Assembly: GCF_030145185.1 (NCBI RefSeq) | Contig: NZ_JAQYWB010000014.1 | Location: forward strand, 1-64,000 | From: Desulfoluna sp. | GTDB lineage: Bacteria > Desulfobacterota > Desulfobacteria > Desulfobacterales > Desulfolunaceae | Length of the DNA: 64,000 nt | Direction: 5' to 3' | Shown here: positions 1 through 49,667 of the stretch, in pieces | How the letters are laid out: each line of letters starts with the position of its first letter | Position numbering within the stretch: the stretch's first letter is position 1 | Notes under the pieces: model-generated | Seen by the model: the letters and a program-made list of their open reading frames with translations, nothing else | What the model was told of the DNA's origin: nothing | Databases searched by the model: none | Made by a program: the position numbers and the translations under genes

Positions 1-3000
1 GGTCCCGTGGATGTTCAGATCACGGACCTGGGCCTCACCGTCTCACCGGACTCCCTCTCCACCACCATCTCCGGCGGGGTGGCCGTGGGGCCCCTTGCCG
101 AGGGGAAGGTCACCGTCACGGCCTCCCCCACCTCCTTTTCCATCAGCGAGATCGCCATCAAATACAGCGAGGCAGGAGTCACCATCGGCGGGGCCATGTG
201 CTGGGATGGTGAAACGAATCAATTCGCAGCGGAGGCAGAACTCGCCGTGGCCGGTGTCATCAAGGGGGACGCCGCCATTGAATTGGGGCGGGAGACCTCC
301 TCTTCGCCCTCCTTTACCTGGTGGCGCGTGGGGCTGTCGGCCTCCCTCGGGGCCCCCATCAACCTCTCCCCCATCCCCTTGAACATTTATGCATTTAAAG
401 GGGGGCTCGCCTACCACATGGCCGCCTCTGCGAACGGCAGTGGGGTCACCTTCACCGCCAATCGTTCCCAGGAGTTTGCGTTTCAAGCCGGGGTCACCCT
501 GGGCACATCGGTGGACGCAGGGTTCGTCTGGCACGGGGACCTCATGCTCACTGTCCAGCCCGGCGCCCCCGTTCTCTTGACCGGTGACACCTACTTTCTG
601 AAGGACAACTTAGGGGCGGCTCCCGAGCGCTACATGGGCGCCAGCATCACCATCGGCGTCTCCGAGCCCTATTTTAACTTGAAAGGAAGCGTGAACTTCC
701 TCATCAATGAGGCCAACTTCGACATCTTTGAAGCCACGGTCAGTGAGGACAACTGCAGCATCCAGTTCGGCCCCTCGGCCCGGGACTGGCATATCTATCT
801 GGGAACCAAAGAAGGCCCCATGAAGGTCTCGGCCATCGGAGGTTTTTTCACCGGCACCGGCTACCTCATGATGGATCGCGATGGCCTGAAGTTCGGGTTC
901 AGCGAGGAGTTCGACCTTTCGGCCAAGGCCGGCTGTTTCTACGGCCGTCTCTACGGCGGTGTGGCCCTGGATTTTGAAGCCAGCATCCGCCCCTTCTACG
1001 TGGACGCCGAAGGCCGGGTCTGGATCGGTATCGAGGCAGGCGTCAAAGCCTTTGGGGAAAAGTACGCCATCATCAATGCCTACGCCTCCCTGGGGATGAA
1101 GTTCCACACACCCAACCCCACCTACCTGCGCATCAAAGCCAAATTCAGGTACTCTTTCTGCTGCGGGCTGGTCTCAGGCACCTACCGCACCACCTTCTGG
1201 ATCCCCGAAAAACCCAAAGGAGACCATGTCGACGACCCCACCCGCATGCCCCTGGTGGGCTATCTTCTCCCCGGAGACGGGGGCACAAATATCCCCCGGA
1301 CCCTGCCCTTTGAGATGAGCACCACCTTGCCCGCTGACGAGATCTTTACCCTTGATAACGGCAAAAAATACATGATCCGTATCCTCGATGTAAAAAACCA
1401 CCCGGAGTACCGCTCCGGCGCGGTCACCGGCTTTGCCGATTACATCGACATGCAGAGCGGGGACGATGGCGTCAACGGCATCGCCGTGCGGAACCTGCGC
1501 ATGAACCGGGACCTTGCCCGCCAGATCGGCGGTATCTTCGACCGGGATACCATCAAAGTGCGAAGCTTTGACGAGCTGGACCGGGCCGTCCCCTACACCC
1601 TCTATGCCAGGGCCCATTTGCTGGAGGTGAAAAGATGGGTGCGATCCCCATCGGATTGGCAGGGCCAGTCCCCCGACTCCGTTTTCACGGGCGTGGCCTA
1701 CGACGAAGGAATCCAAAAGGCCGACTTCACCACCGCTGATACGGAGAACCTCACCGGGGCCCGTGAGATCATCGAAAAGGTCTTTCCCTCCCGCGCCGAT
1801 GAGGTGGTCTTCCCCGATACCGAGGTTCGCATCTACTACCGGGTCCCGGCCCTGGGCCAGGGATTTTCCACCAGCAACCGTCACTATGTATACGACGCCG
1901 CAGGCAATGCGGTGGTGGATGCCAACGAGTGGCAGCAGGGGTTGGTCACCGAAAACAGCGTCTCAGCCACCCAGCAGTGGGTCAAATTTGCCAAGCCCAG
2001 CCATCCCCTCACCGTCAACATCTTATATAAAGATGAGCTGACCGGAGAGGTCCGGGCCGCCATCTACGACCGAGATGATGAAATTCACCCCTTTACCCTG
2101 GGACTGTGCCGGACCCGAGACTGCTCGGACCAGAACGACTACGGCACCCCCCCACAAAGTTCCCGATACACGCGCTTCACAGGCAACACCTTCACCATCG
2201 AAATTTATAATGCCGATGACAAACGGATCTACCGGAGCCCCTTCGAAGTCACCAGCTCGGCCCTCTCCAATCAGGAGGTGATCCTGAATTCCAAGGCATC
2301 CCAGGACATCACGGAGGATGATGTCTATAACTGGAGCCCGGAGACAGGAGATATCAACCCCTTGCATGTCTCCATGCATCTCTCCGGGAATCGGTTTTCA
2401 CAGGGAGAGACCCAGGTCATCCATTGGGAAGAGGCCCACGACGCCATTCAAAACACCATTGAATGGCGACAAATCGACTCCGAATATGCGTCCTGCACCG
2501 GGTTTCAAGGCGGGGGTTTCGAACCGCTCATTGAGGCGTGCCCGGAGGCCCGCAGGGAGTATGAGAGGTGGCTGATGGAGCACCCTCGCCCCAAGCCCAT
2601 TGCCTCCTATGGAGCCACGGGGGACCTGGTCTTCACCTTTGAGACCGACACCCCCCTCAACTGGGATGGCATCGGCCTCTTCTTTGATTTTACGAAAAAA
2701 AACGGGGATGAACCCGACTCCGATACCGTCGCCATGACCCTCGGCAGAACAGATTACGAGGTGATCAGCGCCCCCACGGCCACCCAGCACCTGATCATCC
2801 TCCCGTCAAATAAACTCACGTCCAACCTCTACTACTCATTCCGGGACTGGTACATCGACGATCAGGTGAAGGTCAAACTGCAGGCCGTTCAAACCCAGAC
2901 AGGGGCAAACAGCACCTTCAACACCGGCACGGTGGGCGCATCCATTTTTAACTGGACCTTAAGATACAAATCCGATGTGATCGATTACATACCCAAAAAG

Positions 3001-3117
3001 TGCAACGCAAACTTCCATACAGGGGACTATCATTGCGACGACCCGGTCAACATCTATTCAGACCCCTACTTTGCCATCTACCACTACGACCACGTCAACG
3101 GAGACATTGCCCATTGA
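1..3117 (+). CDS. Large beta-rich hypothetical protein, N-terminus cut by window edge
   Basis: The frame is open from the first base and ends at TGA 3115-3117, so at least 1038 residues are visible and the true start lies upstream. I do not recognise a family. The first ~400 residues are rich in Gly, Ser, Thr and Val in short alternating stretches, as expected of a long beta-sheet or solenoid exported protein. A Cys-Cys pair near residue 385 (SFCCGLV) is followed by a region of mixed composition with Trp/Tyr-rich strands (for example YSFRDWYIDD). No membrane helix or catalytic motif is evident. The next gene, an exported FN3 protein, starts 8 bases after the stop, so the two are probably co-transcribed. 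A cell-surface or secreted role is inference. No signal peptide can be judged because the N-terminus is missing. Confidence 0.75.
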   Translation, partial: GPVDVQITDLGLTVSPDSLSTTISGGVAVGPLAEGKVTVTASPTSFSISEIAIKYSEAGVTIGGAMCWDGETNQFAAEAELAVAGVIKGDAAIELGRETSSSPSFTWWRVGLSASLGAPINLSPIPLNIYAFKGGLAYHMAASANGSGVTFTANRSQEFAFQAGVTLGTSVDAGFVWHGDLMLTVQPGAPVLLTGDTYFLKDNLGAAPERYMGASITIGVSEPYFNLKGSVNFLINEANFDIFEATVSEDNCSIQFGPSARDWHIYLGTKEGPMKVSAIGGFFTGTGYLMMDRDGLKFGFSEEFDLSAKAGCFYGRLYGGVALDFEASIRPFYVDAEGRVWIGIEAGVKAFGEKYAIINAYASLGMKFHTPNPTYLRIKAKFRYSFCCGLVSGTYRTTFWIPEKPKGDHVDDPTRMPLVGYLLPGDGGTNIPRTLPFEMSTTLPADEIFTLDNGKKYMIRILDVKNHPEYRSGAVTGFADYIDMQSGDDGVNGIAVRNLRMNRDLARQIGGIFDRDTIKVRSFDELDRAVPYTLYARAHLLEVKRWVRSPSDWQGQSPDSVFTGVAYDEGIQKADFTTADTENLTGAREIIEKVFPSRADEVVFPDTEVRIYYRVPALGQGFSTSNRHYVYDAAGNAVVDANEWQQGLVTENSVSATQQWVKFAKPSHPLTVNILYKDELTGEVRAAIYDRDDEIHPFTLGLCRTRDCSDQNDYGTPPQSSRYTRFTGNTFTIEIYNADDKRIYRSPFEVTSSALSNQEVILNSKASQDITEDDVYNWSPETGDINPLHVSMHLSGNRFSQGETQVIHWEEAHDAIQNTIEWRQIDSEYASCTGFQGGGFEPLIEACPEARREYERWLMEHPRPKPIASYGATGDLVFTFETDTPLNWDGIGLFFDFTKKNGDEPDSDTVAMTLGRTDYEVISAPTATQHLIILPSNKLTSNLYYSFRDWYIDDQVKVKLQAVQTQTGANSTFNTGTVGASIFNWTLRYKSDVIDYIPKKCNANFHTGDYHCDDPVNIYSDPYFAIYHYDHVNGDIAH

Positions 3118-5156: not shown

Positions 5157-5289
5157 GCGCTGAAAAAAAGCGACCGTGCCCACAGAAAAAAACAATAGAA
5201 TAAAAAGGCATTGAACAATGTCCCTCCCTGTGACTATGTATTTAGACCAATAGAGATCATGTTTTTTGTGTCATTCACCGGGGGGGACC

Positions 5290-8200
5290 GTGACATACGA
5301 GCAAAGGGAATACGTGAACGGCTATCTGCCACCGGCGGTTGGGGGCAATACCCATCTCAGGCGGGACAGGCTAATAGGCATCCTCGTTCGAGCAAAGATT
5401 GCGGGGCATCGTCTTTTTCTCATTGAGGGGCAAGCGGGCCAGGGGAAATCAACCCTGGCGGCTCAGTACATAGGCCAAGAATCGTCACGAGCCCTCTGGT
5501 ACGCCATGGAGACAGGAGACACGGACCCGGCACGGCTGCTGCACTGCCTTCTCGGAAGGTTAAAAGAGAGCCTGCCTATTTTTTCTTCACCCTTTCTCGA
5601 AGCCATGGTGGTCAAGGGAGAAATTGTCTCGGTGGACTGCCATGCCTATGGGGTGCGGCTTGCCGAGTCCCTGGCATCTCAACCGCCCTTCATCCTGGTC
5701 TTTGACGACCTCCATCTCCTGGATACCGGGAGCCCATCGGCAGCTTTTTTGAAAGGCTTCATCGAAACCAGGGTGCCACAACGCACCCTGTTTCTCCTCT
5801 CCAGGTATTCCGTCTCTGACCTTCTGTTCGGCGGCCGCCAGCCTCTTTCGTCCACACGGATTACAGGGAAATCTCTTGCCATGAACCGTGGGGAGATAGC
5901 CGATTGCCTCACCCACCTGTTTCACCTCTCCCCCACCCGGGAGATGGTAAACCACGTGCACGCCGCCACGGAAGGCTGGGTCATGGGGGTCCTGGCCCGC
6001 GCCCACACCCTCCAGGCGTCAGGGGAAACCGCCCCTTTGCCGAAACGCCCTGAAGCCGAGGTCAAAGCCTACCTGGACCAGGAACTTGTGGAAAGTTTCC
6101 CCCGCGAAATGCTTCCCCTTCTCACGGACCTCTCCTGGGCCGACACGGTCCCCATGGACCTGGCCCGCACCCTCTCAGGCCGGGACGACATCCTCGGCCT
6201 CTTCTTGCATCTGGTAAGCCACAATTTCTTTACCCGCTTTGCCACCGAGAAAAAAACCGAAGCGGTGTTTCACCACCACCTTCAACACTGTCTGCGTGAA
6301 CAAAGCAAAAAATACCGCAGCGAAGAAGAGCTGAAAAAACTTTTTGTCACCCTGGCAGGGTGGTACGAAACCCATGGAAAGCCGGAAGATGCGGCGCGCT
6401 TCTTTTTCGATGCAAAAAATTATGATGAAGTGGAACGCATCATCCGGGACCGCGGCCTGGCCCTGTGCAGCGCCGGTCGCCTGGAGACCTTAAGGCAGAG
6501 CATCGGACGCATGCCCGAAGAAGTCATCACCCAACGGGGGTGGCTGGCCTGCAACTACGGCATCTCCCTGATGGAAGTCGAACCCCCCAGGGCCTTTGCC
6601 TTCCTGAAGGCCGCCGAGGCCTGTTTCCTTCAAAAAAAGGATGCCCTGGGCCTGCTCATCGCCCAGGTCCAACAGATCTACTACCACAGCTGGGTGGATG
6701 ACCTCTTCGACGCGGGCAGGCCCCTGCTGGAGCCGGTGCACCGGGCCTTGAGAAAACTGGAGAACGAGCTGGAGGAACAGGTACGTCTCAAGACACTCTA
6801 CTGCCTGGCCTGCGGCTACGCTTTTTTTGAATGCAACCTCACGAAGGCATTGCTCTGCGCAGACCAGGCGCTGGAACTGGCCTTGAAAAAAGGGTATATC
6901 AATGCCGTCTGTGAAATTCGAACGATCCGAATCTACATCCACGGTTTCAAGGGGAACTGGAACCGATTCAACCATGAAATTGAGCCCCTGGTCCCCCTGA
7001 TCTCATCCCCCCGGGTCAGCTCCTACAACCGCTTCCTTGGATGGATGACCCTGTTAAAAACCCTGCTCATCGAAGGGGATACAGAGACCTACCACCACTA
7101 CCGGGAACTCACCCCGGATATCATTCAAAATGACACTATTTTCAAAGAGGTGGTGACCCCCTTTTTCGCTATCTGGGATATAGACGCGGCCCTGTCAGGT
7201 GGCAAGGCAGGCCTGGCCGAACGCATCGCCATTAAAGCCCTGCCCCGGTTCCATGCCATGGGCAATGCCCACATGCTGAATCAGATGCTTCATTATCAGG
7301 CCTTTGCCCTGGCCATGCAAAACGAGCACCGCAAGGTCCCGGCCATCTGCCGGGAGGCCATCAACCAGCGCTCAAAATCAGGGTCCCCCTTCTTTATAGC
7401 CCTCACCAATCTGATCACCGGGGCGGCCCTGACCCACTCCGGGGAATTCGAAAAGGCCGAACCGCTTCTTCTTGACGCCCTCGGCACCTTCGAATCCATG
7501 GAAGAAACCTATGAACGGACCGGAACCCTGGCGCACCTGAGCCATCTCTATGCCGCCACCGGACGCCAAGACCTGGCAGACACCCACACGGCCAGGTGGC
7601 TCCACCTGATAAAACACAATCACTGCAGCCATCACTTCTCCTGGCCCCTATCCATGATCACCTCCCTGGTCGACAGGGCCGTGGCCGAAGGCATTGAGGT
7701 AGAAACCGCCACAAGCCTTGCCAAAACGAAACTCCAGCGCGGGTACACACCCAACGGCCATCCTATTCCCCTGCTATGCATCAAAACGTTCGGCGGCTTT
7801 ACCCTGGCCCTTGACGACCGGATTGTCCTCACCCTCCAGGACCTCACAACCAGCCAGCAGCAATTACTCGCCTTGCTTCTCTCCCGCAGCGGCACCCTCT
7901 CCGTGGATGAGATCCAGACCCTTTTCTGGCCCGACGCCTCTCCGCAAAAAGGTCGTGCCAGCTTGGACACCATGGTCTCCCGTCTCAAGAAGACCCTGAA
8001 AAAAGCCATCGCCCCCCACAACCCGAGTGATTTCCTCTCCGTCAAAAAGGAGAAATTGATCCTGTCAAACGTCAACGTCGATGCCTGGCAGTTCTCCGAC
8101 CTTGCAGAAGAGGGCCTCCAGCTGTTTCGAACCCAATCCTTCTGGCAGGCCACCAACCGCTTTCGCACCGCCTTCGCCCTGGTCAGGGGCTCCTACCTCA

Positions 8201-8520
8201 CCGGATTCTCGGATGACGGCACCAGCCACGAATACCGGGAATACGTGCTGCGGCCCCTCATCCAGCGTGCCGCCCTCACCTGGTTCAACAGTCTCACCCA
8301 ACTCAAGGTCCCCATGGCCAAAGACCTCGCCACCCTGGAAACCCAAATCACCGGTGACCCCGAAAGCCTGGAACTGGTCAAGGCAATCCACCGCCACCAC
8401 ACAACCGCAAATGCCTCCCACAGGGCCACCTCGCTCCTGAAAAAATACCGGGACAAACTCACCCGGGAAGGCCTGCCCGATGACGAGATCGAAACACTCC
8501 TGGAAGGGTTGTGGGGTTAA
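5290..8520 (+). CDS. MalT/STAND-like ATPase with TPR region and C-terminal SARP/BTAD-like regulator domain
   Basis: Predicted 1076 residues from GTG 5290, preceded at short distance by a G-rich run; TTG 5266 is an in-frame alternative. A P-loop (GQAGQGKST, about residues 48-56) and a Walker B-like stretch (FILVFDDLHLL) mark a STAND NTPase of the MalT/LuxR-associated type. Residues ~370-800 are alpha-helical and Ala/Leu-rich, consistent with TPR repeats that sense a ligand or protein. From ~830 (IKTFGGFTLALDD) a winged-helix of the OmpR/SARP type begins, with a typical stretch (TLFWPDASPQKGRASLDT). A bacterial transcriptional activation-like domain follows. The architecture implies an ATP-dependent transcription activator. 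It sits directly downstream of two large exported proteins, its likely targets by position only. DNA site and inducer are unknown. Confidence 0.85.
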   Translation: MTYEQREYVNGYLPPAVGGNTHLRRDRLIGILVRAKIAGHRLFLIEGQAGQGKSTLAAQYIGQESSRALWYAMETGDTDPARLLHCLLGRLKESLPIFSSPFLEAMVVKGEIVSVDCHAYGVRLAESLASQPPFILVFDDLHLLDTGSPSAAFLKGFIETRVPQRTLFLLSRYSVSDLLFGGRQPLSSTRITGKSLAMNRGEIADCLTHLFHLSPTREMVNHVHAATEGWVMGVLARAHTLQASGETAPLPKRPEAEVKAYLDQELVESFPREMLPLLTDLSWADTVPMDLARTLSGRDDILGLFLHLVSHNFFTRFATEKKTEAVFHHHLQHCLREQSKKYRSEEELKKLFVTLAGWYETHGKPEDAARFFFDAKNYDEVERIIRDRGLALCSAGRLETLRQSIGRMPEEVITQRGWLACNYGISLMEVEPPRAFAFLKAAEACFLQKKDALGLLIAQVQQIYYHSWVDDLFDAGRPLLEPVHRALRKLENELEEQVRLKTLYCLACGYAFFECNLTKALLCADQALELALKKGYINAVCEIRTIRIYIHGFKGNWNRFNHEIEPLVPLISSPRVSSYNRFLGWMTLLKTLLIEGDTETYHHYRELTPDIIQNDTIFKEVVTPFFAIWDIDAALSGGKAGLAERIAIKALPRFHAMGNAHMLNQMLHYQAFALAMQNEHRKVPAICREAINQRSKSGSPFFIALTNLITGAALTHSGEFEKAEPLLLDALGTFESMEETYERTGTLAHLSHLYAATGRQDLADTHTARWLHLIKHNHCSHHFSWPLSMITSLVDRAVAEGIEVETATSLAKTKLQRGYTPNGHPIPLLCIKTFGGFTLALDDRIVLTLQDLTTSQQQLLALLLSRSGTLSVDEIQTLFWPDASPQKGRASLDTMVSRLKKTLKKAIAPHNPSDFLSVKKEKLILSNVNVDAWQFSDLAEEGLQLFRTQSFWQATNRFRTAFALVRGSYLTGFSDDGTSHEYREYVLRPLIQRAALTWFNSLTQLKVPMAKDLATLETQITGDPESLELVKAIHRHHTTANASHRATSLLKKYRDKLTREGLPDDEIETLLEGLWG

Positions 8521-9890: not shown

Positions 9891-10129
9891 CGGAAAAGAG
9901 CCTGAACCACTGAGGGGCGTCCTCCGCTCCCTCAGCACCCTCATCAATCCGGTTCACTGACCTGTTTTAGTGGCCGATATCAGCGAGCTAAAGAGAGACC
10001 GAAGCAATATCCGCACCACCCAGCATGATTTTATTAGATATTTTATATAATCCACCTAAACTCCCATCCCCCTCCACCCGATATATAGAGTTGTTTTCCT
10101 TTTTCAAACACCAAATGGGAGCTCTGCGG

Positions 10130-12196
10130 ATGATCAAAAACCTCAAACTTCGCGGCAAGCTGATTCTTGCCATCTCAACCATTGCGTTTCTTTCCTACGT
10201 GATCACCATCACCGCTGTCACCTTTAAAGTACGCAGCTCTGCCCACCATGCCGCCATCATGCAGGGTCAGGAGATCGCCGCACGCCACAGCACGGAGATT
10301 TCGGGTAAAATCGAGGCCTACTTCAGCACGGTCCGTTCCCTTGGGGAGACCATGGAGGCCTTCAAAAAGTCAGGCAGCTTTAACCCCCGAGAGTCCCTCA
10401 ACCAGATTATGAAAGAGGTTTTGGAGAACAACCCGGAGCTCATCGCCGTCTGGACCGGCTGGGAGCCAGACGCCCTGGATCAACTCGACGGTGCCTTCGA
10501 AAACAAGAAAGGCCATGACGCCACCGGCCGATTCGTGCCCTACTGGTTCCGCAACGGGGACACCGTCGATGTCACCCCCCTGGTTGATTACGCCACGGAA
10601 GGAACTGGTGATTACTACCTCATTCCCTTGCGCAGCGGCCACGAAACCATGACCACTCCCTATTTTTATGAGGTGGAGGGAACAAAGGAACAGATCATCA
10701 GCCTGTGTGTTCCCATTGAAGTCGACGGAGACGTCATGGGGGTCTGCGGCGTAGACCTGAAACTTGCCTCCTTCTCAGACATGATTAAAGACCTTACCCC
10801 CTTCGGCACCGGGTACACGGCGGTCATTGCCAACGACGGCAACTATGTGGCCCATCAGATTAACAAAGCCAAACACGGAAAAGAGATCGGTTCCTCTGAA
10901 AACTGGTCCGCCGCCAAGAAAGCGATCAAAGAAGGAAAGCCCTTCGAATTTGAATCCAATTCAAGGGATCTGGGAATCGACATCGTGCGCATCTTTGCCC
11001 CTGTCACCTTTACCGGTCAGGACAGGCCCTGGTCTTTTCTGGTCAACATTCCCATGGCTCAGGTCATGGCAGAGGCCAACACCATCGCCTGGCTTATCGT
11101 GGGCATCGGTGTGGCCGCCTTTCTCCTGCTCACCGCCGTGGTCATCTGGGTGGCCGGGACCATTGCCAAACCTCTGCGAAAAAGTGCCTCCCTCTTAGAA
11201 GAGATCGCCAAAGGCGACGGAGACCTCACCCAGCGTCTGGAGGTGCACTCCGGGGATGAAATCGGCGAACTGTCCGGATGGTTCAACACCTTCATGGCGG
11301 ATCTCCAGGTAATCATCGGAGATGTCAAAGAGAACGCCCTCTCCGTGGACAGCTCCTCCGGGGGGCTTCTCACCGTCTCCGCCACCCTCTCCGCCTCCGC
11401 CGATGAGACCCAGAGCCTGGCCTCCCAGGTGGGCGAAGAGGCGAGTCAAATGGCCATGAACCTTACCACCATTGCCTCTGCCATGGAGCAGTCCACCGCC
11501 AACATCAACACCGTGGCCGCTTCCGCCGAAGAGATGAGCGCCACCATCGGGGAGATCGCCGCCAACTCAGAAAACGCCCGGTCCGTCTCCGACGGCGCCC
11601 TGGCCGACGCCATGGAGACCGCCGACCTCATGAACAGTCTGGGAAACGCTGTGGATGAAATCGGACAGGTCACCAACACCATCACCGAGATCTCTGAACA
11701 GACCAACCTCCTGGCCTTAAACGCCACCATCGAAGCGGCCCGCGCCGGTGAAGCCGGCAAAGGCTTTGCGGTGGTGGCAAGCGAGATCAAAGACCTGGCC
11801 GGCCAAACCGCCAAAGCCACGCTTGAAATCCGCGGGAATATCGAAAGCGTCCAGGAAAAAACCAACGCCTCGGTGGAGAAGATCAACGCCATTCTAGGGG
11901 TCATCAAAAATGTCAATGACATCGTCTCGGGTATCGCTGCTGCCGTAGAACAACAGTCCGCCGCCACCAGCGAGATCTCCACCAACATCGGCCAGGCTTC
12001 CGCCGGTATCGGTGAGGTCAATGACAACGTCGGCCAGTGCGCAACCGCAGCGGACGCCATCAACCAAAACATGGTCAACGTGAACCACGCCTCAGGCGAC
12101 ATCTCCGGCGGAAGCCACAAGGTCGAAGAGAGTGCCCGGGAACTCAAGGCCATGGCCGAAGCCTTGAACGGCCTGGTGGGTCGCTTTAAGATTTAA
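10130..12196 (+). CDS. Methyl-accepting chemotaxis protein with dCache-like sensor
   Basis: Predicted 688 residues. ATG 10130 is preferred because GGAG lies 8 bases upstream; ATG 10115 is in frame but has no ribosome-binding site. Layout: membrane helix ~11-32, a large periplasmic sensor ~35-318 with the WxGWEPD-type stretch typical of dCache domains ([12 protein letters not shown]), membrane helix ~320-345, HAMP ~346-400 and a cytoplasmic signalling domain to the end. The hairpin tip is intact ([19 protein letters not shown], about 520-540), so it should couple to CheA/CheW. Gln/Glu-rich flanks suit methylation. No che genes adjoin, although a CheD-like fusion lies at 46.7 kb. The ligand cannot be read from the sequence. 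A TATAAT at 10046-10051 may be the -10 of its promoter. Confidence 0.92.
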
Positions 12197-43709: not shown

Positions 43710-43785
43710 TCCCCAGTAGCTCAGTCGGCAGAGCAAGTGGCTGTTAACCACTTTGTCCGCGGTTCAAATCCGTGCTGGGGAGCCA
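43710..43785 (+). tRNA. tRNA-Asn (GTT anticodon), copy 1
   Basis: A complete cloverleaf: acceptor TCCCCAG / CTGGGGA, anticodon stem AGTGG / CCACT around CTGTTAA, T-loop GGTTCAAATCC, discriminator G and encoded CCA (76 nt). Identical to copy 2. Confidence 0.97.
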
Positions 43786-44175: not shown

Positions 44176-44251
44176 TCCCCAGTAGCTCAGTCGGCAGAGC
44201 AAGTGGCTGTTAACCACTTTGTCCGCGGTTCAAATCCGTGCTGGGGAGCCA
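44176..44251 (+). tRNA. tRNA-Asn (GTT anticodon), copy 2
   Basis: Identical in all 76 positions to copy 1, including the encoded CCA. It has its own promoter and terminator. Confidence 0.97.
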
Positions 44252-45569: not shown

Positions 45570-46298
45570 CTAAGCCCTGGCGGCAAGACCCTCCCGAATC
45601 TCTTCGGCCACCTGCGCGGCAGCAGCCACCGGGTCTTTGGCATCACGGATGGGACGGCCGATGACCAGGTAATCCGAACCGCCCGCGATGGCTTCCGCAG
45701 GGGTCATCACACGCTTCTGGTCGTCACATTTCATCCCATCCCAGGCGGGACGAATCCCCGGCGTTACCGTAAAAAACCCCTCCCCGGCGGCTTCCCGAAT
45801 GACGGAGGCTTCATGACCGGAGCAGACCACCCCGGCACATCCGCAGGTGTTTGCCATCACCGCGCGTTTAATCACCAGCTGCTTCAGATCCTCTGCGTAC
45901 TGAGGAAGAAATCCGGCCTTGCGGATATCGTCTCCCCCAACGCTGGTGAGCACCGTCACCCCGAGAATCCCGACTTTCCCCTCGCTTCCAGCAACCGCGG
46001 CTTTGAGCATGGCCTCAGACTCACCGCAGTGAACCGTCAAAAAGCGCACACCCAGATCGGCAACACGAGACACGGCCCGCTCCACCGTGACTGGGATATC
46101 ATGGAGCTTCAAATCAAGAAAAATATCCGCGGCTCCGGCCCGGCGAACCTTCTCGACAATGGACGGCCCACACTCAAGAAAAAGTTCCAGCCCGATTTTA
46201 AACAGCCCCACGTTTCCGGAAAGCAGGGCAGCATAATCCAACGCCTCCTTCTCTGTGGGAAGATCCAGAGGAAATATAATACGATCTTGGGGATTCAA
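45570..46298 (-). CDS. pyrF: Orotidine-5'-phosphate decarboxylase
   Basis: Predicted 242 residues from TTG 46298, set by AAGGAGG 6 bases upstream. The signature DLKLHDIPVTVERAV contains the catalytic Asp-Lys-Asp set of the PyrF/OMPdecase family, with PLDLP at the N-terminus and YLVIGRPIRDAKDP at the phosphate-binding end. It makes UMP, the last step of de novo pyrimidine synthesis. Full length. No other pyr gene adjoins. Confidence 0.95.
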   Translation of the reverse strand: MNPQDRIIFPLDLPTEKEALDYAALLSGNVGLFKIGLELFLECGPSIVEKVRRAGAADIFLDLKLHDIPVTVERAVSRVADLGVRFLTVHCGESEAMLKAAVAGSEGKVGILGVTVLTSVGGDDIRKAGFLPQYAEDLKQLVIKRAVMANTCGCAGVVCSGHEASVIREAAGEGFFTVTPGIRPAWDGMKCDDQKRVMTPAEAIAGGSDYLVIGRPIRDAKDPVAAAAQVAEEIREGLAARA

Positions 46299-46756
46299 AG
46301 GCGCCTCCTTCTTTTTGGTTGCGATATATTAGATCGAACACACGAACGGTATTTCATTGTGCACAGGCGGTATACCCCATTTCAGGGAAGGGATAAAGCT
46401 TCAAAATAATTCCGCATCACGCGCCCGTCGTTCCCTCCCCGGCCGCATCGCATGCACAGCGGCCACATCAACGGCAAAAACAATGCAAAAACAGTTAGTT
46501 TAAAGCCTTTTTCATTGCAATACCCCACACAAAATGCTACCTCTTTTTACTTGACAGCTCTTATAATTCAGGGAACGATGCGCCACACATCACACACCGA
46601 GCCATGGCTCAACCGTACTGCAACGTATGATGGAAAGGCCCTTTGGACCCGTGACTTTTTGTGATCGCATTCCGGTTGAGCAGGCACCCGCAAGGTTTCA
46701 GGGCCTCTTGTTCACAAATCATGGGAACCATTCCCCTTGCAAGAAAGCCTTTCTGT
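46299..46756. other. Intergenic region, 458 bp, between divergent pyrF and CheD-HDOD genes
   Basis: No gene is supported. It contains a TTGACA (46551-46556) only five bases from a TATAAT (46562-46567), too close to work together; either could belong to a separate promoter. Confidence 0.45.
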
Positions 46757-48094
46757 ATGACCTATTACCAGAAGCACCACGTCCCCGCAGGAACCTTCCA
46801 GGTAAACGCCAGAAAACCCATGGTGCTTCAGGCCTACCTGAACTCCTGTGTCGGTGTCGCCCTTTTTGACCCTGAAGCCGGCATCGGCGGCCTCTACCAT
46901 ATTCTCCTGCCCGAACCGGTCTCCGGCAAAACCGAATACAACCGGGAAAAATACGCGGCCACCGGCCTGCCCCTTTTTATGGGAAGCCTTGTGCGGGAAG
47001 GCGCTGAAATTTCCAGGCTTCAGGCCGTCATCGCTGGCGGCGCCCTGTCGGGGAAGGTCAGCAATCAGGACATCCGCCTCGATATCGGTGGCCGTACCGC
47101 CGAGGTGGTCAAAGAGATGCTGGGCAAACATGGCATCCATGTGGTTCTCTCGGAGACTGGCGGTTTTTTCACCTGCTGCCTCAACTTCAACCTGGAGACC
47201 TTCGAGTACGAAGTGATCCCCGCCCTCCTGTCCAGCGAGGAGCCCGCAGACGAGAACACCAGCGGGCGCATCTCCAGCCTGGATGACCTCCAGCCCATTC
47301 CCCAGGTCGCCCTGAAAATCCTGCGCATGATCGGGGAGGATACCTACGATATCCGCTACCTCTCCCAGGAGGTGAGAAAAGACCAGGTCATCAGCGCCCA
47401 GGTTCTCAAGCACTGCAATGCCGCTATCTTCGCTGGCCAGGGCGGGATTGATTCCATTGACGACGCCCTGCTTATCATCGGTCAAACCACCCTGGCCAAG
47501 ATTATCACGGCCATGGCCATAAAAAAATTGCTTAATAACAGCTACACCGGGTACTCCCTCGCCAAGGGTGGCCTCTACCACCATGCCATCGGCGTGGCCC
47601 TGGTGGCCGAAAAGGTCGCAGGCTTAAGCGGAAAGGCCTCCCCCTTTGCCGCTTACTCAGCCGGACTGACCCACGACCTGGGCAAAGTGGTCCTGGATCA
47701 GTTTGTTTCGGGTGCCCGGCCCTTCTTCTATCGGGAGATCATGGGCGAAAGCGACCTGGTAGAAACGGAGAACCGCCTGCTGAAGACAGACCACACCAAG
47801 GCCGGCTACAAACTGGCTCAAAAGTGGGACCTGCCCCCCTCGATAAGCAACACCATTCGTTACCATCATCAACCGGAAGCATCCAAAGCCCATCTTGAGC
47901 TGGTGACCATCGTCTCTGTGGCCGACACTCTCTTTCACATGTTCAGCGCCGGCCCCTCCCTGCACAAAGTCGATATGAACTCCCTGTCACGGCGGCTGGA
48001 AATTCTCGGCATGTCCATCTCCGATTTCCCCGCCATTGTGGATGCCATCCCCCATCAAGTGCTCACAGGAAGCCCGGAGCTGGCCATCAACTGA
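46757..48094 (+). CDS. CheD-like domain fused to HDOD domain
   Basis: Predicted 445 residues from ATG 46757; ATG 46721 is an in-frame option. Residues ~8-160 read as CheD, the chemoreceptor glutamine deamidase: catalytic Cys31 (LNSCVGVALFD) and His48 (GLYHILLP) are spaced 17 apart as in Thermotoga CheD, with later GGA/IGGRTA and SETGGFFTC motifs. The Thr six residues before the Cys in CheD is Gln25 here. Residues ~180-390 are an HDOD domain (LQPIPQVALKILRMI; GLTHDLGKVVLD), which commonly acts in signalling without catalysis. The fusion suggests a link between receptor modification and another signal path. A terminator follows. Single-gene transcript. Confidence 0.85.
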   Translation: MTYYQKHHVPAGTFQVNARKPMVLQAYLNSCVGVALFDPEAGIGGLYHILLPEPVSGKTEYNREKYAATGLPLFMGSLVREGAEISRLQAVIAGGALSGKVSNQDIRLDIGGRTAEVVKEMLGKHGIHVVLSETGGFFTCCLNFNLETFEYEVIPALLSSEEPADENTSGRISSLDDLQPIPQVALKILRMIGEDTYDIRYLSQEVRKDQVISAQVLKHCNAAIFAGQGGIDSIDDALLIIGQTTLAKIITAMAIKKLLNNSYTGYSLAKGGLYHHAIGVALVAEKVAGLSGKASPFAAYSAGLTHDLGKVVLDQFVSGARPFFYREIMGESDLVETENRLLKTDHTKAGYKLAQKWDLPPSISNTIRYHHQPEASKAHLELVTIVSVADTLFHMFSAGPSLHKVDMNSLSRRLEILGMSISDFPAIVDAIPHQVLTGSPELAIN

Positions 48095-48152: not shown

Positions 48153-48187
48153 GGTGATTCCACCAGAGGTGGAACCACCTTTTATTA
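48153..48187 (+). terminator. Terminator after the CheD-HDOD gene
   Basis: GGTG-a-TTCCACC pairs with GGTGGAA-c-CACC across a three-base loop and is followed by a T-rich run. Confidence 0.85.
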
Positions 48188-48263: not shown

Positions 48264-49667
48264 ATGGAATTACGGGACACCCAGAAACAGCTGCTTCGCA
48301 CCCTGCCCGGTGTGGATACCCTCCTTGACGCCCTGACGGCAGAAATTCCTGCCGAAAAGGTCCCCCGAAGCGTCCTGACAGCATCGGCTCGGGAGGCCCT
48401 GGAGGCCATGCGTCGATCCATCTTTAACGGGCAAGAGCCCACGGTGGATCTCGCCTCGGTTCTAACCCTGGCCCACCAGCGAATTGACACAAAAATGCAC
48501 CCAAACCTCACCCGGGTGGTCAACGGCACCGGCGTCGTGGTTCATACAAACCTCGGCCGCTCCCTGCTGGCTGACGAGGCTCTGGAACGCATCAAGGCCG
48601 TGGGGAATCGCTACTCCAACCTTGAATTCAACCTGGCCACAGGAAAAAGGGGTCTGCGCTACACAGCCGTGGAAGATCTGATCTGCGAAATCAGCGGGGC
48701 AGAGTCCGCCATGGTCGTCAACAACAACGCAGGCGCCGTGCTTCTCTGCCTCGACACCCTGGTACGCGGCAAAGAGGCCATTGTCTCCCGGGGCGAGCTC
48801 GTAGAGATCGGTGGGGCGTTTCGCATCCCCGACGTCATGGCCAAAAGCGGCGGAATTTTAAAAGAGGTGGGCACCACCAACCGAACCCACCTGAGGGATT
48901 ATGAAAACGCCACCACCGACGAGACCGGCCTCTTCCTCAAGGTACACACCAGCAACTACGCCATTGTAGGCTTTACCTCGGCCGTCTCTGTGGCTGAGCT
49001 CGTGGCGCTCGGCAAAGAGCGCGGCGTCCCCGTCATGGACGACCTGGGCAGCGGCACCTTCGTCAACTTTTCCCACTACGGACTCCCCGCCGAACCCACG
49101 GTGCAACAATCGGTTGCCGCCGGGGCCGACATCGTCACCTTCAGCGGCGACAAACTTTTGGGCGGTCCACAGTCTGGCATCATCGTCGGAAGCAAAAAGC
49201 ACATTGAAGCCATCCGAAAAAATCCCCTGACACGTGCCCTCCGCATTGACAAACTCACCCTGGCCGCCCTGGAGGGGACCTTGCGTCTCTACCGGGACGA
49301 AGCGCAGGCCGTGAAAAAGATTCCCACCCTGCGCATGATCACCATGAAACGGGAAGAGACGGAAGCACAGGCCAGCGACCTCATGGAGGCCCTCAAAGGG
49401 CTCCCCATCACCACGGAAGCGCTGGCCCTGGCCTCTCGCCCCGGCGGAGGTTCCCTGCCTATGCTGGAGCTCCCCTCCTGCTGCGTGGGCATCACCCTCC
49501 CCGGAATGGAAGCAGGAGCCCTTGAAAAAGTCATGAGAAAAAACGATCCACCCGTCATCGGACGCATCGAAAATGAAACCTACATCCTTGATCCCCGAAC
49601 CCTTCAGGTGGGGGATATTGCCCTTATTGCCGACGCCCTTGCGCATATTGTGGAGGCCCGATCATGA
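48264..49667 (+). CDS. selA: L-seryl-tRNA(Sec) selenium transferase
   Basis: Predicted 467 residues. Converts Ser-tRNA(Sec) to Sec-tRNA(Sec) using selenophosphate and PLP. The PLP Lys is about K297 in SGDKLLGGPQSG, near K295 of E. coli. Other family motifs include NGTGVVVHTNLGRS, NNNAGAVLLCLDT and DLGSGTFVNF. The start is set by AAGGGA shortly upstream. It overlaps the next gene by ATGA. selB and selD are not in the window. Its presence shows that this organism uses selenocysteine, but I found no in-frame Sec codon in the genes here. Confidence 0.95.
   Translation: MELRDTQKQLLRTLPGVDTLLDALTAEIPAEKVPRSVLTASAREALEAMRRSIFNGQEPTVDLASVLTLAHQRIDTKMHPNLTRVVNGTGVVVHTNLGRSLLADEALERIKAVGNRYSNLEFNLATGKRGLRYTAVEDLICEISGAESAMVVNNNAGAVLLCLDTLVRGKEAIVSRGELVEIGGAFRIPDVMAKSGGILKEVGTTNRTHLRDYENATTDETGLFLKVHTSNYAIVGFTSAVSVAELVALGKERGVPVMDDLGSGTFVNFSHYGLPAEPTVQQSVAAGADIVTFSGDKLLGGPQSGIIVGSKKHIEAIRKNPLTRALRIDKLTLAALEGTLRLYRDEAQAVKKIPTLRMITMKREETEAQASDLMEALKGLPITTEALALASRPGGGSLPMLELPSCCVGITLPGMEAGALEKVMRKNDPPVIGRIENETYILDPRTLQVGDIALIADALAHIVEARS

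Follow-up and report, generated by a model that had tools for sequence, protein, structure and literature searches.

The open frame at 46757..48094 (+) of the window (the whole stretch of 64,000 nucleotides analyzed) encodes a putative signalling protein in which a CheD-type cysteine deamidase is coupled to an HDOD domain. As judged by comparison with its relatives, the protein belongs to an old and widely kept family that probably arose from a single fusion event, and its targets may extend beyond chemoreceptors; this reading as a whole was given a probability of about 0.48. The CheD half would be an active deamidase or esterase operating through Cys31 and His48, with the part of the missing threonine taken over by a different residue or a group of the backbone; its targets would be glutamine or glutamate residues in helical signalling proteins. 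The HDOD half would bind a metal, a ligand or a partner and set when and where the CheD half acts, in a regulatory or docking role.

The mechanistic role of HDOD domains is described as not established in the available part of PMC6543031. The fixed and repeated coupling with CheD gives the HDOD domain a defined candidate partner enzyme and, therefore, a testable function. If targets other than chemoreceptors are confirmed, signalling proteins of other kinds would also undergo covalent adaptation of the chemotaxis type, and carriers of the fusion without matches to chemoreceptors (MCPs) and CheW are the natural places to seek such targets.

The window gene and its two halves

The gene is a single open frame from ATG to TGA with a length of 445 amino acids. 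An in-frame GTG at 46661 is an alternative upstream start, but in several relatives no start codon of the frame precedes the one at the position of the window ATG (e.g., L036, L037, L041, L042 and L043; L and G numbers denote loci and genomes, the genome of the window being G000). The sequence-only reading had placed a CheD-like and an HDOD domain in this one frame, which was borne out by Pfam and phmmer matches to both halves. The CheD-like half (residues 8-153; 46778..47215, +) was aligned by phmmer over residues 8-150 with the T. maritima CheD 2f9z_C (E 4.5e-17), and its residues 50-152 matched Pfam CheD (PF03975) with 69 bits, above the gathering cut-off of 25; the conservation of its cysteine and histidine also supports the assignment. 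A variable linker of about residues 154-171 (47216..47269, +), poorly conserved in orthologs, separates it from the HDOD half (residues 172-445; 47270..48091, +). The latter is conserved, aligns over residues 172-404 with the HDOD structure 3hc1_A (E 1.4e-25), and matches Pfam HDOD (PF08668) at residues 179-373 with 137.8 bits (cut-off 22.9), covering profile positions 2-196 of 196. A Pfam HD match spans residues 274-392. An AlphaFold model of the fusion with three input sequences reached a pLDDT of 34.5.

With the CheD proteins of T. maritima (2F9Z) and B. subtilis, the window family shares the Pfam family, the spacing of cysteine and histidine and the alignable residues 8-150. It differs from them in the fusion to HDOD, in the equivalent of Thr21, which is Gln, Glu or another residue, in forming its own clade and in being present in some genomes without MCP matches. 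It also falls below the NCBI equivalog cut-offs for CheD: the NCBIfam CheD equivalogs matched the window protein far below threshold, the best with 89.2 bits against a cut-off of 240 bits (NF041119).

Metal-dependent phosphohydrolases of the HD type carry the ligand pattern H...HD...H...HH...D, and HD-GYP phosphodiesterases are marked by a GYP motif after the HH pair. The ligand pattern is complete in the window protein (His276, His306-Asp307, His346, His370-His371 and Asp390), and the GYP motif is absent after the HH pair, where HHQPEASKAH is found. Among the fusions of the order, the five histidines were kept in 57/57 and Asp307 in 56/57, while position 390 was Asp in 42, Asn in 11 and Glu in 4. 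The HD core up to the HH pair was kept in 21/23 fusions from outside the order and in 20/20 other high-scoring HDOD proteins; 6 of the 16 HDOD proteins encoded next to cheD lacked one or two of its residues. Since all 20 other high-scoring HDOD proteins keep the core, the HD-type residues were ruled out as a special mark of the fusion. Like the HDOD proteins 3HC1, GsmR and DVU0330, the fusion scores well above the Pfam HDOD cut-off and has no GYP motif; unlike them, it has an N-terminal CheD partner. According to the available part of PMC4114195, DVU0330 also keeps the HD residues, while GsmR was reported without the conserved histidine. PADLOC matches of the protein to Cas3/Cas10 were weak, concerned the HD domain only and were disregarded.

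Distribution, origin and neighbourhood of the fusion

The distribution of the fusion was determined in an order sample of 146 genomes, i.e., G000 and 145 genomes of the same genus, family or order. Uninterrupted CheD-HDOD fusion genes were found 56 times, in 54 of these genomes. The 54 carriers do not include G097, whose gene is split, G102, whose gene is disrupted close to the end of a contig, or G072, in which only the CheD part is present; G145 was counted although a contig end cuts its gene. Identity to the window protein was 39-89% for 52 fusions of the order and 29-33% for those of G047, G029 and G090. Of 395 genomes searched in the phylum, which include at least 17 of the order, 43 or more from outside the order carry an uninterrupted, nearly full-length fusion; this number is a lower bound, because no more than 4 candidates were scored in each genome. 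A contig search for the window gene returned two close relatives, from Desulfobacteraceae and Desulfobacterales MAGs. The check for two genes or a frameshift, also raised by the sequence-only reading, found the fusion to be real: a frameshift, a two-gene arrangement and a chance reading were ruled out by the single frame and the 56 uninterrupted relatives.

In a FastTree tree of 105 CheD sequences, including few standalone CheDs, one clade (support 0.989) united all 79 fusions sampled with L091, a truncated relative, and excluded 24 standalone CheDs and 2f9z. Likewise, in a FastTree tree of 118 HDOD sequences, the HDOD domains of 80 fusions formed one group (support 1.0), separate from 16 cheD-adjacent and 22 other HDOD domains. 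The divergent fusions L140 and L141 were included neither in the trees nor in the residue counts. Because the fusions form one clade in both trees, a single fusion event is the simplest reading, and CheD-HDOD is probably an old and widely kept family derived from it. A tandem duplicate of the fusion gene was observed in G054 (L084:260-1591 and 1670-3010), in the second copy of which His48 is replaced by Asn.

CheD and HDOD were also found side by side as separate genes. An HDOD gene adjoins or overlaps 11 of 19 sampled standalone cheD genes, and in two Leptospira interrogans records genes annotated as CheD and HDOD lie under one joined match. These pairs, from the same order and from Leptospira, resemble the fusion in having the same two domains next to each other, often overlapping. 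Unlike the fusion, they are separate genes, their CheD belongs to another clade with the TxxLGSC motif, and their HDOD domains belong to other lineages. Judging by the two trees, CheD and HDOD were likely coupled more than once, with the fused and the separate pairs probably independent in origin.

The CheD-HDOD pairing was not found in the open-access full-text literature; with subscription papers and domain databases outside this scope, an earlier listing is possible. The available part of a Geobacter survey refers to proteins with HD domains encoded within che clusters but to no CheD-HDOD fusion. Literature on CheD, CheR and hybrid histidine kinase architectures, as far as its text was available, does not mention HDOD.

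The gene after the fusion is selA (48264..49667, +), encoding L-seryl-tRNA(Sec) selenium transferase (Pfam SelA, 511 bits), and the divergent upstream neighbour is a pyrF-like gene (45570..46298, -; Pfam OMPdecase, 174 bits), which occupies the same place in many relatives. selA adjoins the fusion in 42 of the 54 order carriers, on the same strand wherever this was read, and a TPR gene often follows. Of 39 measured gaps between fusion and selA, 30 were shorter than 70 nt or overlaps, as counted from longest-frame starts. These observations would fit a protein that is co-transcribed with selA and regulates selenocysteine synthesis. However, none of 23 fusions from outside the order had selA within the flanks available, which extended to at most 1.5 kb and in some cases ended earlier with the contig; in L139, also from outside the order, it lies some kilobases from the fusion. 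Moreover, the pyrF-selA-TPR block persists in order genomes without the fusion (L142, L149 and L158), the selA block is kept at L157 in a genome whose fusion sits elsewhere, and selA is present in 140 of the 146 genomes. In the window, the two genes are separated by a terminator-like hairpin at 48165..48182 (+), a consensus match only, with 3 such sites against 2.1 expected in shuffles; a longer terminator-like hairpin, likewise a consensus match, lies in the same gap on the other strand (48153-48179, -). A selenium link was thus regarded as very improbable, and the adjacency of fusion and selA is probably stable synteny.

Catalytic residues of the CheD half

The alignment with 2f9z_C placed Cys31 (codon 46847-46849, +) and His48 (codon 46898-46900, +) 17 residues apart, as in CheD, and aligned Gln25 (codon 46829-46831, +) with Thr21 of T. 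maritima CheD, six residues before the catalytic cysteine. The spacing and the replacement of the usual threonine by glutamine, both of which had been read from the window DNA, were thus confirmed. The order alignment comprised 57 rows, including both tandem copies of L084, the incomplete L082 at a contig end, and a gap row for L085, whose N-terminal half is missing. In the 56 readable order fusions, Cys31 was kept in all and His48 in 55, the sole exception being the Asn in one of the two tandem copies of G054.

The threonine position was far more variable. It was Gln in 28 of the 56 order fusions, Glu in 16, Lys in 4, Tyr, Ser and Thr in 2 each, and Asn and Asp in 1 each; the residue after it was Ala in 48, Ser in 6 and Thr in 2. 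Among 23 fusions outside the order, Glu was found in 9, Lys in 5, Val and Arg in 2 each, and Tyr, Asp, Asn and Gly in one each, with one unreadable, i.e., Thr in 0 of 22 readable sequences. For comparison, 19 standalone CheDs, mainly best-scoring matches, were aligned, one of which (L180) has no readable threonine place. Thr was present at this place in 12 of the 18 readable sequences; of the other six, five had Thr one residue later and one had Ser, so that 17 of 18 carried Thr either at the place itself or directly after it. Because standalone CheDs mostly have Thr there or one residue later, its absence sets the fusion family apart, and across the sequences aligned the lack of Thr characterizes the whole family and not the window gene alone.

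The human N-terminal Asn amidohydrolase NTAN1 offers a comparison for this loss. Like the fusion, it has a CheD-like fold with Cys and His, and its target is a non-receptor, as given in the available part of PMC7022378; unlike the fusion, it is eukaryotic, has no HDOD domain and uses Ser as the third triad residue. The same part of PMC7022378 reports that the activity of NTAN1 fell about 5-fold on exchange of the matching residue (S69A) and was abolished by mutation of Cys or His, and describes the third triad residue as diverse in CNF1/YfiH-like hydrolases. Since NTAN1 S69A stays active and the residue is diverse in these hydrolases, the loss of Thr need not mean inactivity of the fusion. The earlier suggestion that the replacement may alter catalysis is a possibility, but the replacement is not peculiar to this gene and the third residue is non-essential in NTAN1.

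CheD binds CheC, and the CheD half might similarly have given up deamidation to serve as a binding module. The absence of Thr throughout the family, mostly without a neighbouring Thr or Ser, would agree with such a pseudoenzyme. In addition, decay of CheD does happen: neither Cys nor His is preserved in the standalone CheD that G081 encodes next to an HDOD gene. The fusion of that same genome (L042), however, keeps both residues, as do the order fusions in general, and the third residue is dispensable in NTAN1 (PMC7022378, available part). As a binding partner, CheC (PF04509) gave no match in G000 with a weak profile of only 38 positions. Loss of catalysis was therefore considered improbable. 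The decayed gene of G081 (L180:3153-4525) carries Cys -> Gly and His -> Asn and overlaps an HDOD frame; its genome gave neither MCP nor CheW matches.

Chemosensory genes and candidate targets

The fusion is the only CheD in G000, which has at least 22 MCPsignal matches (scoring covered 22 of 78 candidates), 8 CheW stretches and 2 CheR. The chemoreceptor noted at 10130 as encoded away from the fusion is real: Pfam places an MCP at 10025-12196 of the window, not adjacent to the fusion. Because G000 has many MCPs and no other CheD, chemoreceptors would be the likely target in the organism of the window. Away from the fusion, on contig C87 of G000 (L221:2562-8269), a large kinase-like gene was observed, after which come a cheR assigned by Pfam and a cheB-like frame; the kinase-like and cheB-like assignments were made by eye.

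In the order, an MCPsignal match was found in 47 of 54 carriers and 66 of 92 non-carriers (Fisher p 0.04). The remaining seven carriers (G009, G034, G081, G093, G121, G129 and G145), draft genomes that are 83-97% complete, gave no MCPsignal match and no CheW match either, and no CheW match was obtained in G072 with its CheD remnant. These seven span four families (G009; G034, G093 and G129; G081 and G121; G145), and Cys and His are kept in all of their fusions. A clear CheR-type methyltransferase of 265-280 amino acids was observed once each in G009, G129, G034, G093, G121 and G145 (L215-L220), and weaker CheR matches besides in four of these six; the CheR genes of the carriers without MCP and CheW matches lie on contigs other than that of the fusion.

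Selective constraint on the fusion was estimated by dN/dS, a rough measure here, as dS was near 1 or above in most pairs. Whole-gene dN/dS was 0.12-0.15 in five MCP-less carriers of two genera, as compared to 0.06-0.10 in control pairs with MCPs. By halves, the five carriers showed 0.10-0.19 for CheD and 0.11-0.14 for HDOD, and the control halves 0.04-0.12. By these sequence-based ratios, the fusion is constrained in the MCP-less genera, a little less than in the controls.

Ordinary receptor adaptation would require nothing beyond CheD deamidating MCP glutamines and HDOD acting as an accessory regulator, with the MCP-less carriers explained by recent loss or incomplete genomes. It is consistent with G000, where the sole CheD is accompanied by MCPs and CheW, with the enrichment of MCPs among the order carriers and with the presence of CheW in 43/43 carriers outside the order. 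The slightly higher dN/dS without MCPs also points in this direction, as does L091, which comes from a genome without MCP/CheW matches and retains the CheD part alone. However, three MCP/CheW-less genomes of one genus, separated by a dS of about 1, gave a dN/dS of 0.12-0.13, too constrained for an unused relic, and the spread of the seven carriers over four families also argues against this explanation. On balance, it was judged somewhat unlikely as a full account. The sequence-only proposal that the fusion ties receptor adaptation to an HDOD output is thus plausible for G000; if the seven carriers truly lack MCPs and CheW, receptor adaptation cannot be the whole story. Under the preferred reading of a coupled deamidase with targets perhaps beyond chemoreceptors, the target in such relatives must then be a different one, possibly another helical protein such as a sensor histidine kinase.

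Candidates for such targets are suggested by the neighbourhood of divergent fusions. In L086-L088, which form a small clade in both trees, and in L140 and L141 from outside the order, cheR is the next gene after the fusion (called by Pfam for L140 and by clustering for the others), and the two genes overlap in L087, L140 and L141. In L140 and L141, cheR is followed by a GAF hybrid histidine kinase with two receiver domains, and in L086 a HAMP-GAF hybrid kinase lies downstream of cheR with one gene between. We conjecture that these hybrid kinases would be the best target candidates. Both runs (L140:2102-8357 and L141:7019-13166) have an operon-like arrangement of cheD-HDOD, cheR, hybrid histidine kinase and a second kinase-type gene; no MCP gene was recognized in them by Pfam on four genes and clustering on the rest.

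More generally, the protein might be a signalling deamidase working outside the chemoreceptor array, with or without CheR, which converts Gln to Glu on sensor histidine kinases or other helical signalling proteins and uses HDOD as a switch. The fusion-cheR-hybrid kinase runs of L140 and L141 would then be the visible form of receptor-style adaptation of kinases. CheW is present in the genomes with such runs (G461 and G174), and a general departure from chemotaxis is disfavoured by the finding of CheW in every one of the 43 carriers from outside the order; this extension was considered unlikely.

Further features were observed elsewhere in the window. Neither of two very long open frames, at 7-3117 (1036 aa) and 5266-8520 (1084 aa), matched Pfam at 1e-5. 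A pair of tRNA-Asn(GTT) genes, which Rfam scored equally, is located at 43710-43785 and 44176-44251, about 400 bases apart.
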